Assembly (NCBI GenBank): GCA_022704525.1
Contig: JAKJGF010000009.1
Coordinates: 1 to 41,955 of the forward strand
Direction: 5' to 3'
From: Bacillota bacterium
GTDB lineage: Bacteria > Vulcanimicrobiota > SpSt-956 > JAKJGF01
Length of the DNA stretch: 41,955 nucleotides
Shown here: piece after piece, positions 14,222 to 37,236 of the stretch
How positions within the stretch are numbered: position 1 is the first letter of the stretch
Layout of the letters: each line of letters starts with the position of its first letter
Position numbers and translations under genes: made by a program
The notes under the pieces: model-generated
The model's database searches: none
Seen by the model: only the letters and a program-made list of their open reading frames with translations
Told to the model about the DNA's origin: nothing

Positions 14222-14283
14222 AAATTTTTATCTCCCTTCTTCAGATAGAACGAAAAGATTATAGCAAAAAATAATAATAATTG

Positions 14284-14394
14284 TAACTATACTTTTGCAG
14301 AATCTTGAAAAATCGTTATCCTGTAGGGGTGCAAAGCCTTGCGCCCCTACAAAGTGGAATAAGGCTTTGTTTAAAAAGTGCAAAAGTATAGTTA
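14284..14394. mobile_element. MITE-like family B element, copy 2
   Basis: 111 bases with perfect 16-bp terminal inverted repeats (TAACTATACTTTTGCA / TGCAAAAGTATAGTTA). The shell matches copy 1 (1881-1989). The core is a different palindrome (GTAGGGGTGC...GCGCCCCTAC). It fills most of the rodA - radical SAM spacer and has no coding capacity. Confidence 0.85.
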
Positions 14395-25624: not shown

Positions 25625-26973
25625 ATGTCAAAAATCAGTGATATCTTTGAAAAAGAAATGAAAGTTATTAATATGGGGCTTGAAAGTTTCCGTTCTTCCA
25701 TGGAACATCAGCATGTAAAGGTACTGCAGGTGGACTGGAAACCTCCTGCAGGAGGTAATAAAAAATTAATTTCCGCTCTTTTGAAATTGAAAAAAATATC
25801 GGAAGAAGCCAACAAAGAAGGTGTTGAAAGGATAATAAATTCTCAACCGGTTCTTATGGATGTAAAGAAGGCAATTGATGTTATTCCCGGTATGCATAAG
25901 AAGATGCTTCTTCATGCAGGTCCTCCAATAACATGGGAGAGGATGTGCGGACCTGTAAGGGGGGCCTGTATGGGTGCGCTTATTTATGAAGAAATAGCTG
26001 AGAATCCAGAGAAAGCGGAAAGAATACTCTCGAGAGGAGAAATAGAATTTTCCCCCTGTCATCATCACAGTGCAGTGGGACCTATGGCAGGTATTGTTTC
26101 GTCATCTATGTATGTTTACTGTATAGAGAATAAGACCTTTAAAAACAAGTCCTATTCAACCCTTAATGAAGGTCTCGGAAAGGCTTTGAGGTTTGGTTCC
26201 TATGATAAAGACGTTATAGAAAGGCTTAAATGGATGGAACAGGTTCTTGGCCCTGCTTTACAGAAAGCAGTGAGACTTTCAGGAGGAATAAATGTAAAAA
26301 ATCTCACTGCCCAGGCACTTCAGATGGGTGATGAGTGTCATAACAGAAATATAGCAGCAAGTAATCTGTTTTTAAAAGAACTTACTCCTTATCTTCTTAA
26401 AACAGATCTTTCTAAAGAAATTATACTGAAAGTTTTCCAGTTTATAACGGGAAATGTTCATAGTTTTCTCAATATGTCTATGGCGGCATGTAAATCTTCA
26501 ACAGATACAATACTGGGGCTTAAAAATAGTACCCTTTTATCTGCTATGGCACGAAACGGGACAGATATAGGAATACGTATAGCAGGACTTGGAGAACGAT
26601 GGTTTACTGCTCCTGCAGGGGAACCGAAGGGACTTTATTTCCCGGGTTATACGAGGGTGGATTTGCTATGGCTGCAGCACCTGCCATAGTAAAATTTGTG
26701 GGAGGTTCCCCTTCTGATGCCATCAAATTTACCAGTGAAATGTATGAAATAACTGTAGCAGAACACAGAGATTATCAGATACCGGGACTGGACTTCCGTG
26801 GAACCCCTGTGGGAGTTGACCTCTGTAAAGTGATAGAAAAAGGTATAACACCTATTATAAATACAGGTATAGCTCATAAGAATCCCGGAGTGGGACAGGT
26901 GGGAGCAGGAATATTATATGCTCCTGTGAAGTGTTTTGAAGATGCTATGGAAGCGTTTATGAGTGAGAAGTGA
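25625..26973 (+). pseudogene. Frame-disrupted DUF1116 gene (AllG-like)
   Basis: The first frame (25625-26689, ATG with GGAAGGTGAT) encodes the DUF1116 N-terminal 340 residues up to GERWFTAPAGEPKGLYFPGYT. From 26656 the family continues in another frame (GGFAMAAAPAIVKFVGG to GVGQVGAGILYAPVKCFE, stop at 26973). From memory, homologues have roughly 19-20 conserved residues (of the DANPDIGDS type) between PGYT and GGFAM. These are absent, and two bases (26654-26655) are left, so about 55 bases seem lost. Either the oxamate carbamoyltransferase AllG subunit is broken in this genome or this is an assembly fault. The last codons (MSEK, TGA) are part of the GTGAGAA repeat that follows. Confidence 0.8.
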
Positions 26974-27095
26974 GAAGTGAGAAGTGAGCAGTGTAAAGAA
27001 GTGAAAAGTGAAAAGCATGGTTCATGTAATTTAATTACTATTACATTATCGTTTCACGCTTCACGTTTCACCTCTAACCTCTCATCTCTCACTAT
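26960..27095. repeat. Heptamer repeat with inverted counterpart
   Basis: GTGAGAAGTGAGAAGTGAGA tandem heptamers at 26961-27018 face pyrimidine-rich counterparts (TTTCACGCTTCACGTTTCAC, 27052-27071, then CTCATCTCTCACT). Together they could fold into a long imperfect hairpin between allG and the kinase gene. Confidence 0.7.
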
Positions 27096-27112
27096 AAAGG
27101 AGAGACCGGATT

Positions 27113-28873
27113 ATGCCCTTAGAAGCGGGTACCAAACTGGCAGGTCGTTATGAAATACAGCAAACTCTGGGGCAGGGTGGAATGGGTTCAGTTTATCTGG
27201 TGAAGGATCTCAAGTTCTCAGAAAAATACTGGGCTATTAAAGAACTTTATAATCCTTTTCAGGATCCTGTTTCCAGAGAAAATGCTGTAAAACAATTTGA
27301 ACATGAAGCTAATTTACTCGCATCTCTTAAACATCCCGGACTTCCTGTTGTAAGTGATTATTTTGAAGAAGGTGGTAATTATTATTTAATTATGGAATAT
27401 ATAGAGGGGACTTCACTCCTGGATGAAAGTATGAAGGAAATATTTCCTATTACAAAAATTCTGAATATTGCATTAAGGATATGTGATGTTCTTGATTATT
27501 TACATACCAGAACACCTGATCCTGTGGTTTTCAGAGATTTAAAACCGGATAATATTATGCTTGCTTCTACCGGTGAGGTAAATTTAATTGATTTCGGTAT
27601 ATCCAAGATTTTTCAGGAAGATACCAGAACAGGTACTTTTATTCAGGGAGCAGGCACTTCCGGCTATGCTCCCCCTGAACAGTATACATCCGGCACAGAT
27701 TGCCGTACTGATATATATTCTTTAGGTGCCACTCTTTATGCTCTCATTACGGGACAGGTACCTCCTGATGCTATGAGTATGCTTCTTTCCGGAGAGAGGT
27801 TAGTTCTGCCTACAGAACTGAATATGGAAGTTACTCTGGAACTGGAAGGTATACTCTTAAAGTCTATGAACCTTAAAAAAGAAAAGCGTTATAATGATAT
27901 AAAAGAGATGAGGGAAGCACTGCGAATATGCCTTGAAAATTATAAAGGTTCAGGTGGAGAAGGAAGTACAAAAAAAATATTAAATCCCACCTCTTTTTTA
28001 ACAGCAAAAACTCTCATCAGTTTTTCTTCAAGACTTACAAAAAAAATCACAGATCTTAGAGATTTTCTTGAACACCCGGATAGAGGTGGATTAAGAAGAG
28101 AGTTTTTATTTATTTTTTTTATTATTCTTCTGACAGTTTCACTGGGAGTATATCTTTTATATATTAATTCCTTTTCAAAGAAGCCTCTGGAAGTAGCTCC
28201 ATCTGAAATGGTTTATGTGCCTGAAGGAAAATTTTTTATGGGTAAAGAGAAAAAGGAAGTTTTTGTTTCTGCTTTTTATATAGATAAATTTGAAGTCTCC
28301 AATAGAGATTATAAAAAGTTCTTAGATGTTACAGGATACAATGAACCCTTACTATCTGATAAAATGGCAAAAGAATATAATACCTGGAGTGAAGAACAGA
28401 AGGAAATTGCAAAAAAATATATCTGGATGAATGGTAACTTTCCTGAAGGAAGAGAGGATTATCCTGTAGTTCTGGTAGGCTGGGAAGATGCCAGAACTTA
28501 TGCCAGATGGGCCGGTAAACGCCTTCCTACAGAAGCTGAATGGGAAAAGGCCTGTCGTGGTACTGATGGTAGACTATGGCCATGGGGTAATAAGTGGGAT
28601 GAAAAAAAATGTAATACTGCTTATGGAAACATAAATGATCTGATCCCGGTAGATAGCTATCCATATGGTATCAGTCCCTATGGAATAATTAATATGATAG
28701 GAAATGTATGGGAGTGGACAGATGATTTCACCACTGATGGCGTTATAGTAAAAGGAGGAGCCTGGACTGCTCCGGCTGATCAATTAGATGTTTATTCTTA
28801 TACTCAAAGAAAACTCAATCCCCTTGAAAAAACTTTTCATTTAGGTTTTAGATGTTGTAAATCTATAGAGTGA
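27113..28873 (+). CDS. Ser/Thr protein kinase fused to formylglycine-generating-enzyme-like domain
   Basis: 586 residues. The kinase domain spans about 12-275, with Gly-rich GQGGMGSVY (20-28), Lys43 (AIKE), catalytic Asp142 (FRDLKPDN, with Phe in place of the HRD His), DFG Asp160, and APPEQY. A Lys-rich linker follows, then one membrane helix (about 330-350), then a C-terminal SUMF1/FGE-sulfatase-type domain (about 362-586: MVYVPEGKFFMG, RLPTEAEWEKACRG, GNVWEWTDDF, LGFRCC). The FGE active-site Cys pair is absent (the region reads SYTQRKLNPLEKTFHLGFRCC), so this domain is more likely a binding or C-lectin-like sensor than a sulfatase activator. Predicted topology is kinase inside, FGE-like domain outside: a receptor kinase. 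Start with AAAGGAGAGACCGG. Confidence 0.9.
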   Translation: MPLEAGTKLAGRYEIQQTLGQGGMGSVYLVKDLKFSEKYWAIKELYNPFQDPVSRENAVKQFEHEANLLASLKHPGLPVVSDYFEEGGNYYLIMEYIEGTSLLDESMKEIFPITKILNIALRICDVLDYLHTRTPDPVVFRDLKPDNIMLASTGEVNLIDFGISKIFQEDTRTGTFIQGAGTSGYAPPEQYTSGTDCRTDIYSLGATLYALITGQVPPDAMSMLLSGERLVLPTELNMEVTLELEGILLKSMNLKKEKRYNDIKEMREALRICLENYKGSGGEGSTKKILNPTSFLTAKTLISFSSRLTKKITDLRDFLEHPDRGGLRREFLFIFFIILLTVSLGVYLLYINSFSKKPLEVAPSEMVYVPEGKFFMGKEKKEVFVSAFYIDKFEVSNRDYKKFLDVTGYNEPLLSDKMAKEYNTWSEEQKEIAKKYIWMNGNFPEGREDYPVVLVGWEDARTYARWAGKRLPTEAEWEKACRGTDGRLWPWGNKWDEKKCNTAYGNINDLIPVDSYPYGISPYGIINMIGNVWEWTDDFTTDGVIVKGGAWTAPADQLDVYSYTQRKLNPLEKTFHLGFRCCKSIE

Positions 28874-28989: not shown

Positions 28990-29769
28990 ATGCAGGAGAT
29001 TCAATATCATATCTCCTTAAAGAAGGGTGATATAGGTCCTTATGTCATTCTTACAGGAGATCCCGGGAGAGTACCTTTTATTGCTAAATATTTTGATCAT
29101 GCTGAAAAAGTAGCTCAAAATCGTGAATATGTTACTTATACCGGTACTGTAGGGGGTATAAAAATTTCAGCTGTATCTACTGGAATAGGCTGTCCTTCCA
29201 CTGCTATTTGTATTGAAGAATTGTCCAGGATAGGAGCAAATACTTTTATAAGGGTAGGTACTGCAGGATCTCTTCAGGAAAGTGTAAAATATGGTGATCT
29301 GGTAATTTCAACAGGCACCGTAAGGGAGGAAGGTACCACAAGACAGTATATACCAGTTAATTATCCAGCTGTTCCCGATTATGAAACCTTGTCAGCACTT
29401 GTAGAATCTACAAAAAAGCTGGGATATAGTTATCATTACGGTATTACTCATTGTAAGGATGCTTTTTATTCTGAAATTAATCAGGGACTTCCTATGGATG
29501 AAGAAAATAGTAAAATATGGACTTACTGGAGAAAATCAAATGTCCTTGCCACATCTATGGAAGCTGCTGCTATTTTTGTTCTTGCTTCTCTTAAAAAGCT
29601 TCGGTCCGGTGAAGTACTTGCAGTGATAGGACTTACTTATGATGAAAAACCTGTTTCAAATATTTTACAGAAAGATGTTGTTGTTGAGCATGCTATTAAA
29701 ACTGCTATAGAAGCCATTAAACTTTTACATCTTAAAGATACAAAAAAGATTACAAAAAACCATAATTAA
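28990..29769 (+). CDS. udp: Uridine phosphorylase
   Basis: 259 residues, close to E. coli Udp (253). The phosphate-binding segment is LTGDPGRVPFIAKYF (17-31). RVGTAGSL (about 91-98) and SMEAAAIFVLA (about 192-202, with the ribose-binding Met-Glu) place it in the nucleoside phosphorylase-I family. The FDHAEKVAQNREYVTYTG start and the missing purine Asp support uridine over purine nucleosides, but substrate choice is an inference. It cleaves uridine to uracil and ribose-1-phosphate in the cytoplasm. The start has AAGAAGGAGTTGTTCT. It may belong to nucleoside/nitrogen salvage with the amidohydrolase cluster. Confidence 0.9.
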   Translation: MQEIQYHISLKKGDIGPYVILTGDPGRVPFIAKYFDHAEKVAQNREYVTYTGTVGGIKISAVSTGIGCPSTAICIEELSRIGANTFIRVGTAGSLQESVKYGDLVISTGTVREEGTTRQYIPVNYPAVPDYETLSALVESTKKLGYSYHYGITHCKDAFYSEINQGLPMDEENSKIWTYWRKSNVLATSMEAAAIFVLASLKKLRSGEVLAVIGLTYDEKPVSNILQKDVVVEHAIKTAIEAIKLLHLKDTKKITKNHN

Positions 29770-29793
29770 ATGAGTTTGTTGTTAGTTCGCTTA

Positions 29794-29821
29794 TTGACTA
29801 ATAAATTTTTTTTGATATAAT
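29794..29821 (+). promoter_or_regulatory. Strong promoter of a structured leader RNA
   Basis: TTGACT (29794-29799), 16 bases, TATAAT (29816-29821); predicted start at A29828. It is one of the best promoters in the window. Confidence 0.75.
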
Positions 29822-29827
29822 ATTCTT

Positions 29828-30078
29828 ACCAGACCAGGGTTGTAATCTGCGGGTAATAAGTCCCGGAAGGCCCCCACTATATATTTAGTGGAAGTTTATT
29901 ATTCAGTGCTTGGGTGTCGCTTTTTTCTTTTTATTGTAAGATTACGAGAGAGGTAAAGTCTGAGGGAACCCTGTATTTTACAATAAATTAGGATTGCCAC
30001 TTTTAAACTCTCTTTATTTGCCAGGAAAAAGGAGATCCATTAAGCACAGTAGTCCAGGAAAAAGGAGGGAAATTAAAG
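29828..30078 (+). ncRNA. Structured leader or small RNA of unknown class
   Basis: The transcript from 29828 can form a closing helix (CAGGGTT 29835-29841 with AACCCTG 29967-29973; GTAATCT 29842-29848 with AGATTAC 29939-29945). The helix encloses two hairpins (CGGG/CCCG, 29850-29865; CCACTA/TAGTGG, 29874-29891). A competing 10-bp pairing (29930-29939 with 29978-29987) crosses the first and would make a pseudoknot or a switch. No known riboswitch, T-box, SRP, RNase P or tmRNA consensus is visible. A 6S-like role is possible given the long open helix, but I cannot support it. The 3' end holds two identical copies of CCAGGAAAAAGGAG (30021 and 30054), the second being the ribosome binding site of the next gene. 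Confidence 0.5.
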
Positions 30079-30372
30079 GTGGACAAGACTAAAGATTTTG
30101 TTGATAGGACTTTAGTCTGCAAGGATTGTAAGGTTGATTTTGTGTTTACTTCAGGTGAACAGAGGTTTTATTCTGAAAAAGGATTTGAGAATGAACCGGG
30201 TCGTTGCCCTGACTGCCGCCTTGCCAGAAAAAGAAAAGGTTCTAAAAAAGAGCTTCACAGCACAACCTGTGCACAGTGTGGAGTTGAAACCCAGGTACCT
30301 TTTGAACCCAAGGAGGGTCGTCCTGTTTATTGCAGGGAATGCTATAAGGAACATGCTAAAAAAGCAGGCTAA
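30079..30372 (+). CDS. Zinc-ribbon protein (zf-trcl type)
   Basis: 97 residues. The N-terminal half is the probable zinc-binding zf-trcl domain: VCKDCKVDFVFTSGEQRFYSEKGF, then CPDCR. The C-terminal half is a second two-CxxC zinc site, CAQCGVETQVPFEPKEGRPVYCRECY. GTG at 30079 with AAAGGAGGG is the start. Such small basic zinc proteins are probably nucleic-acid or ribosome associated, but no function is established. It is the only gene behind the structured leader and is closed by two terminators, so it is a self-contained unit. Confidence 0.88.
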   Translation: MDKTKDFVDRTLVCKDCKVDFVFTSGEQRFYSEKGFENEPGRCPDCRLARKRKGSKKELHSTTCAQCGVETQVPFEPKEGRPVYCRECYKEHAKKAG

Positions 30373-30392
30373 TCCTTATTAAATAAAGGTAG

Positions 30393-30424
30393 AAAGAGTC
30401 TGGAATTTTCCAGACTCTTTTAGT
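30393..30424 (+). terminator. Rho-independent terminator of the zinc-ribbon gene
   Basis: AAAGAGTCTGGAA, small loop, TCCAGACTCTTT, followed by TTA. A 12-13 bp stem lies 21 bases after the stop. Confidence 0.85.
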
Positions 30425-30429
30425 TTTTT

Positions 30430-30464
30430 AAATCAAAAAGTCGGTATACCCGACTTTTTGATTT
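30430..30464. terminator. Bidirectional terminator
   Basis: AAATCAAAAAGTCGG / CCGACTTTTTGATTT, a 15-bp stem with A-rich and T-rich flanks. It lies between the converging zinc-ribbon and beta-barrel genes and can serve both strands. Confidence 0.8.
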
Positions 30465-35927: not shown

Positions 35928-36062
35928 GCATAAAAATTTTCATTATTGTTAAATTATTAGCTTCAGTAAACATAAACCTTTTATGTTTAAAGCCCTCAGC
36001 AATCAGCTTAAGGAAAAAGCTGATTGCTGAGGGCTGAAAGCTGAAAGCTAATAATAATTTAA
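35928..36062. mobile_element. MITE-like family C element, copy 1
   Basis: It starts TTATTGTTAAATTATTAG and ends CTAATAATAATTTAA. Inside are the hairpins AACATAAA/TTATGTTT and GCCCTCAGCAATCAGC/GCTGATTGCTGAGGGC (perfect 16-bp stem, 35992-36007 with 36018-36033). It matches copy 2 (37102-37236) over its whole length. No coding capacity. Confidence 0.8.
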
Positions 36063-36072
36063 GGAGAAACCT

Positions 36073-37101: not shown

Positions 37102-37236
37102 CATGCACAGGAATTTTTATTATTGTTAAATTATTAGCTTCAGTAAACATAAACCTTTTATGTTTAAAGCTATCAGCAATAAGCTTAAGAAAGCTGAAAG
37201 CTGATGACTGAATGCTGATAGTTAATAATAATTTAA
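37102..37236. mobile_element. MITE-like family C element, copy 2
   Basis: It matches 35928-36062 in the same orientation, including AAACATAAACCTTTTATGTT and the outer AATAATAATTTAA. The internal hairpin is degenerated (TATCAGCAATAAGC ... GCTGATAG). It ends 27 bases before the ATG of the zinc-ribbon/SLH gene. Confidence 0.8.

Follow-up and report, generated by a model that had tools for sequence, protein, structure and literature searches.

The leader that precedes the zf_Tbcl gene in the 41,955-nucleotide stretch of DNA analysed here (the window, or 42 kb) probably serves as an on/off element for the translation of that gene, as judged from its predicted folds. We regard it as an element of an ordinary kind but well marked, i.e., a long 5′ leader in which the translation start would be hidden, this sequestration being significant in the computed folds. 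As computed, its Shine-Dalgarno (SD) sequence and start codon are paired beyond chance, as would be expected of an SD- and start-sequestering leader. A sequence-only reading of the same DNA had proposed a regulatory leader of a class not yet described; this proposal is supported, on account of a hairpin over the SD and start codon and not of the helices it had named, and its further suggestion that the leader senses zinc or a nucleotide found no support.

The non-coding stretch 29770-30078 is located between a uridine-phosphorylase-like gene (28990-29769; PF01048, the top NCBIfam model TIGR01718 being slightly below its cut-off) and the 97-codon zf_Tbcl gene, which is single copy in the source assembly and encodes a protein with PF13451 and PF23477 domains (82.4 and 67.4 bits, Pfam gathering cut-offs 24 and 27). 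A TG precedes the -10 element of the zf_Tbcl promoter (Table 1), which ranks best of the six found in 1.7 kb, and we infer a transcription start at about 29828. The near-consensus promoter, the non-coding stretch of some 250 bases, the 97-residue zinc protein and the two terminators of the sequence-only reading are thus all present, and the distal terminator probably also serves the opposite-strand gene. No terminator followed by a T tract of good quality was found within the leader (29828-30078), which makes premature termination of transcription an unlikely means of control, and inspection by eye of the short reading frames of the leader gave no convincing SD and start.

Table 1. Positions in the window of the zf_Tbcl gene, its leader and the elements described in the text.
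Feature	Position	Strand	Remark
Sigma-70-type promoter, TTGACT-16-TGATATAAT (-10 = TATAAT)	29794..29821	+	11/12 consensus, extended -10
Non-coding leader (5′ UTR) of zf_Tbcl gene, ~250 nt	29828..30078	+	no Rfam match
5′ domain of leader	29835..29973	+	marginal against shuffles
Helix CAGGGTT/AACCCTG	29835-29841/29967-29973	+	in MFE once start codon included
Alternative abutting helix GTAATCT/AGATTAC	29842-29848/29939-29945	+	
Small hairpin CCACTA-TATATT-TAGTGG	29874..29891	+	pair probability >0.97
Perfect 10-bp inverted repeat TTTATTGTAA/TTACAATAAA	29930-29939/29978-29987	+	
Alternative long rod, GTGCTT/AAGCAC closing	29906..30047	+	would leave SD and start free
Anti-SD/anti-start strand, contains CCACTTTTAA-ACTCTCTTT	29994..30026	+	
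SD-block direct repeat D1, CCAGGAAAAAGGAG at 30021-30034 and 30054-30067	30021..30076	+	23 nt, 83%
Paired strand with SD GGAGGG (30064-30069) and GTG start (30079-30081)	30053..30086	+	
zf_Tbcl gene, 97 aa, GTG start	30079..30372	+	two treble-clef zinc-finger domains
Two intrinsic terminators 3′ of zf_Tbcl gene	30392-30421 and 30430-30464	+	

The region described earlier stops at 30078 and misses, by a single base, the strongest feature of the leader, a hairpin which is seen only when the GTG is included. With the start region present, the hairpin formed by 29994-30026 and 30053-30086 dominates the MFE structure, the start GTG has an unpaired probability of 0.00 in the predicted fold and the segment 29988-30092 reaches an MFE z of -3.4, none of 200 shuffles folding as well. 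Regarding the accessibility of the start, we computed the free energy required to open positions -16 to +3 around it and compared this cost with that of shuffles keeping the dinucleotide content, in which only the upstream part was shuffled and the SD and start were kept. Opening costs 16.2 kcal/mol against 6.5 in the shuffles (z 4.1, 1/1001). This statistic was picked after the hairpin had been seen, and control genes were handled identically: the highest z was 1.03 among the 30 other genes of the window and 2.62 among 60 control genes of relatives, taken from around their zf_Tbcl, 6S or RNase P loci, while the 4.1 of the leader is the highest of 105 zf_Tbcl genes. The possibility that this is an ordinary long 5′ UTR, with a chance structure arising where a duplicated purine-rich SD block meets a pyrimidine-rich stretch, has to be weighed against these values. 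Blocks of purines and pyrimidines do ease the formation of chance helices and the helices named earlier are marginal; however, the shuffles described above retain the dinucleotides with the SD and start fixed, and similar start hairpins recur in relatives, and we consider a chance origin unlikely.

One long imperfect helix holding both SD and start is also reminiscent of the ROSE and FourU RNA thermometers, and the many A-U and G-U pairs of the start-blocking hairpin might let it melt with heat. The computed opening cost does decrease from 12.1 kcal/mol at 10 °C to 4.9 at 60 °C; however, it falls gradually, with near 9 kcal/mol left at 37 °C, the leader has no ROSE- or FourU-type match in Rfam and the gene has no known heat-shock function. 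An RNA thermometer thus appears very unlikely.

Translational control, the reading that we favour, likens this leader to translational riboswitch platforms and autoregulated leaders: the 3′ arm of a stable hairpin contains both SD and start, which would be freed if an upstream fold competed with this hairpin. In contrast to these systems, the leader has no known ligand, regulator or Rfam class, and it differs from other sequestering leaders in that the gene downstream has no known function. The competing fold is a long rod which is the MFE structure of transcripts ending from about 30040 to 30080 (folding z -2.6 for the segment 29903-30050) and which occupies the anti-start strand as well as one of the two copies of the SD block. 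The first CCAGGAAAAAGGAG copy is a decoy-like SD deprived of a start codon, located in the loop region of the hairpin or in the rod. At 37 °C and with the start region present, the start-blocking fold is favoured over the rod by 4.8 kcal/mol, a preference that is not firm given energy-model errors of several kcal/mol. As the rod is preferred before the start is transcribed and the start-blocking fold afterwards, the leader could plausibly refold in an ordered way or act as a two-state switch. In the mechanism that we propose, the start-blocking hairpin would keep the full-length mRNA translationally off, or low, by default, while the upstream part of the leader would supply a rod that competes for the anti-start strand and thereby exposes the start. 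Being the fold favoured before the start region is transcribed, the rod would allow translation early after transcription, or later when a signal shifts the balance toward it. Candidate signals include a protein (e.g., autoregulation by the zinc-finger product), temperature or a metabolite.

The helices on which the sequence-only reading had relied (the 7+7 bp closing helix, the hairpin CCACTA/TAGTGG and the crossing 10-bp pairing) are exact at the positions it gave, but the fold that they compose is only marginally better than chance. Among 500 dinucleotide shuffles, 5.2% have a perfect helix of at least 10 bp, 3.2% have 7-bp helices that abut and 3.6% have an equally long crossing pair (P ~0.03-0.05 for each feature); these features come together in 0.5% of 3000 shuffles (P 0.005), yet 13 of 662 tiles (2%) of the 42-kb window are alike. 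Pairing of the TTTATTGTAA/TTACAATAAA repeat would create a pseudoknot with the 5′ domain unless it takes place as a nested alternative, the nested version being 5.6-5.7 kcal/mol above the free ensemble. Both this 10-bp helix and GTAATCT/AGATTAC have a pairing probability of 0 in the nested ensemble, as computed by a program that does not score pseudoknots, and a pseudoknot of the 5′ helices is sterically possible. As a whole, the leader (29826-30078) folds unremarkably, with an MFE z of about -1.3 to -1.4 and 21 of 200 shuffles equally good, and a folding z of -2.5 or below was obtained for 48 of 837 windows across the 42 kb.

A possible pseudoknotted domain followed immediately by SD and start sequestration has the architecture of a translational riboswitch, in which 29835-29987 would be a ligand-sensing, pseudoknotted aptamer and the start-blocking hairpin its expression platform. 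The three 5′ helices are compatible with the start hairpin (clash of at most one base), and their joint pattern is infrequent among shuffles. This interpretation is nevertheless weakened by the recurrence of the pattern in the window tiles, by the leader matching none of the riboswitch covariance models in Rfam and by the missing homologs, hence missing covariation; the short leaders of relatives also have no 5′ domain comparable to 29835-29973, and a downstream gene of unknown function provides no hint of a ligand. A riboswitch is, in our opinion, improbable.

Folding elements were also noticed elsewhere in the window. Its strongest folding window (z -9.4) is a near-perfect long inverted repeat at 14282-14394, with GTAACTATACTTTTGCA and TGCAAAAGTATAGTTAC around AGGGGTGCAAAGCCTTGCGCCCCT, which is probably a miniature mobile element. 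Two related long palindromes (35950-36070 and 37115-37235), which have TTATTGTTAAATTATTAGCTTCAGTAAACATAAACCTTTTATGTTTAAAGC in common, resemble copies of a short palindromic element of the MITE or REP kind, and at 26955-27100, just before a protein kinase/FGE-sulfatase gene at 27113, AGTGAGAAGTGAGAAG-type repeats face their complement to give a long imperfect hairpin.

With respect to known RNA classes, a covariance scan of the window against Rfam (cmscan, gathering thresholds) assigned no family over the leader, and a lax scan of the leader returned chance matches only, mostly on the terminators, which bears out the earlier claim that it resembles no known riboswitch or housekeeping RNA. The same cannot be said of the proposed likeness to 6S RNA: although part of the leader (29906-30047) can fold into a rod, it fails the 6S model (RF00013), and a true 6S gene is located on a different contig of the genome (C23:12377-12559). 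RNase P RNA (RF00010) and tmRNA (RF00023) are encoded on contigs C380 and C61, respectively, and the leader matches neither. SRP RNA was suspected as well, since neither RF00169 nor RF01854 was found in the 91%-complete source assembly; the leader has no similarity to either model. Large-form SRP RNA is present in 15 of 18 genomes searched of the phylum, and the SRP RNA gene of the source genome is probably in the missing 9% of the assembly.

The raiA RNA was considered on the basis of a visual likeness (CGAGAG..GGTAAAGTCTGAGG) and rejected with its covariance model: RF03072 (cut-off 101.3 bits) gave no match at E 5 in the leader stretch or at E 1 in the genome, and the conserved raiA blocks GUCUGUGGUUGAAAGUC and ACCAGGUCAG are absent from the leader. 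The raiA/ModT RNA has been described as abundant and acting in trans, with the comFC and raiA genes as its usual neighbours (PMC11706538). Like the leader, it is structured (~210 nt) and is found immediately ahead of zf_Tbcl in Propionispora, Pelosinus, Sporomusa, Lucifera and others (Negativicutes and some Clostridia), at ~40-70 bases from the gene in nine of the loci compared (L057, L058, L063, L065, L077, L086, L098, L114 and L117). A much shortened raiA of ~118 nt was noticed in Tepidanaerobacter (L108, 2836-2953; 38.9 bits, below the family cut-off). This precedent for a non-coding RNA before zf_Tbcl, together with the strong promoter, might suggest an abundant structured small RNA, similar to raiA or 6S, that precedes the gene only incidentally or is transcribed together with it. 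Against it stand the missing Rfam matches to raiA, 6S, RNase P, tmRNA or SRP, the 6S, RNase P and tmRNA genes located on other contigs, the lack of a terminator separating leader and gene, and the overall folding, which is unexceptional for the window. We hence judge a small RNA of this kind to be quite unlikely.

Other structured elements were observed at this position in Clostridia. Upstream of zf_Tbcl, L103 (2897-2962) and L096 (2903-2967) carry tRNA-like sequences which score as tRNA (RF00005) and in which ARAGORN called no tRNA; they have D-like and T-like arms and an apparently degenerate anticodon arm. Similar elements were recognized by eye in L064, L109, L110, L113, L125 and L130. They sit between zf_Tbcl and what appears by eye to be a sigma-factor gene, with a C-terminal SVDNALQRVRRKLK-like motif.

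The relatives available for comparison are no closer to the source assembly than phylum level. BLASTN against 198 genomes, as well as against phages, detected no homolog of the leader, leaving its own base pairs without covariation support, and a single-sequence covariance model of the 5′ domain, run against 148 genomes and selected leaders, retrieved itself and otherwise weak matches (E≥0.015). The zf_Tbcl gene is present in 53 of the 58 genomes searched of the phylum, behind a putative ribH gene on an Eremiobacterota contig (L124) and in several other relatives, an arrangement from which the phylum is probably Eremiobacterota. Ahead of the gene there is often a promoter-like sequence, followed by a leader of some 60-160 nt, as well as a hairpin that covers the start. 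An opening z of at least 2 was obtained for 8 of 46 zf_Tbcl genes of the phylum versus 4 of 90 control genes (Fisher P 0.016), the remaining 38 being below this value. Without the leader studied here the enrichment persists (7/45 versus 4/90, P 0.03), and it is not significant when Bacillota are included (11/105 versus 4/90, P 0.09); the enrichment of start-blocking hairpins at zf_Tbcl genes of the phylum is modest. In two Bacillota, L075 and L095, SD-blocking hairpins were noticed just upstream of zf_Tbcl (opening z 3.8 and 2.5), with different outer pairs (CTCCTTTGTTAG/CTAACAAAGGAG and CTCCTTTGTTTGG/CCAAAACAAAGGAG).

Within the phylum, groups of leaders were compared with one another. In the f11/f15 family group, two pairs of the SD helix AGCCTC/GAGGCT and its flanking pairs have changed on both sides; 96% of the alignment cells are paired versus 35-59% when the helix is slid, and the covariation score was reached by 8 of 500 shuffles. 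A second group of eight leaders (alignment A2) has the start-pairing helix CTCGA/TCGAG-GTG, with 86% of cells paired versus 29-43% slid, and its changes are one-sided only, none being on both sides. In genus g26, four species (L023, L029, L150 and L153) share a leader with 95% identity over the ~100 nt between promoter and start, whereas identity drops to 16% in the 125 nt preceding it; this leader is a candidate for study as a structured RNA. The conservation in g26, the compensatory changes and the enrichment at z≥2 indicate that the zf_Tbcl leaders of the phylum are under selection, and the same data imply that at least part of this selection goes with start blocking. One could thus envision an undescribed class of start-blocking leaders at zf_Tbcl genes across the phylum, of which the present leader would be a lineage-specific member with a pseudoknotted sensor domain responding to the zinc-finger protein or to a metabolite, a proposal that we regard as rather doubtful.

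Finally, zf_Tbcl proteins are widespread, and a literature search by the Pfam names of the family retrieved no paper on it. Structured RNAs repeatedly precede their genes, namely raiA in Negativicutes, tRNA-like elements in Clostridia and start-blocking leaders in the source phylum, which suggests that zf_Tbcl is worth studying as an RNA-linked protein. If the start-blocking leader is indeed conserved, the amount of zf_Tbcl protein would be tightly controlled after transcription, and the signal that opens the leader would then provide a handle on the function of this protein.
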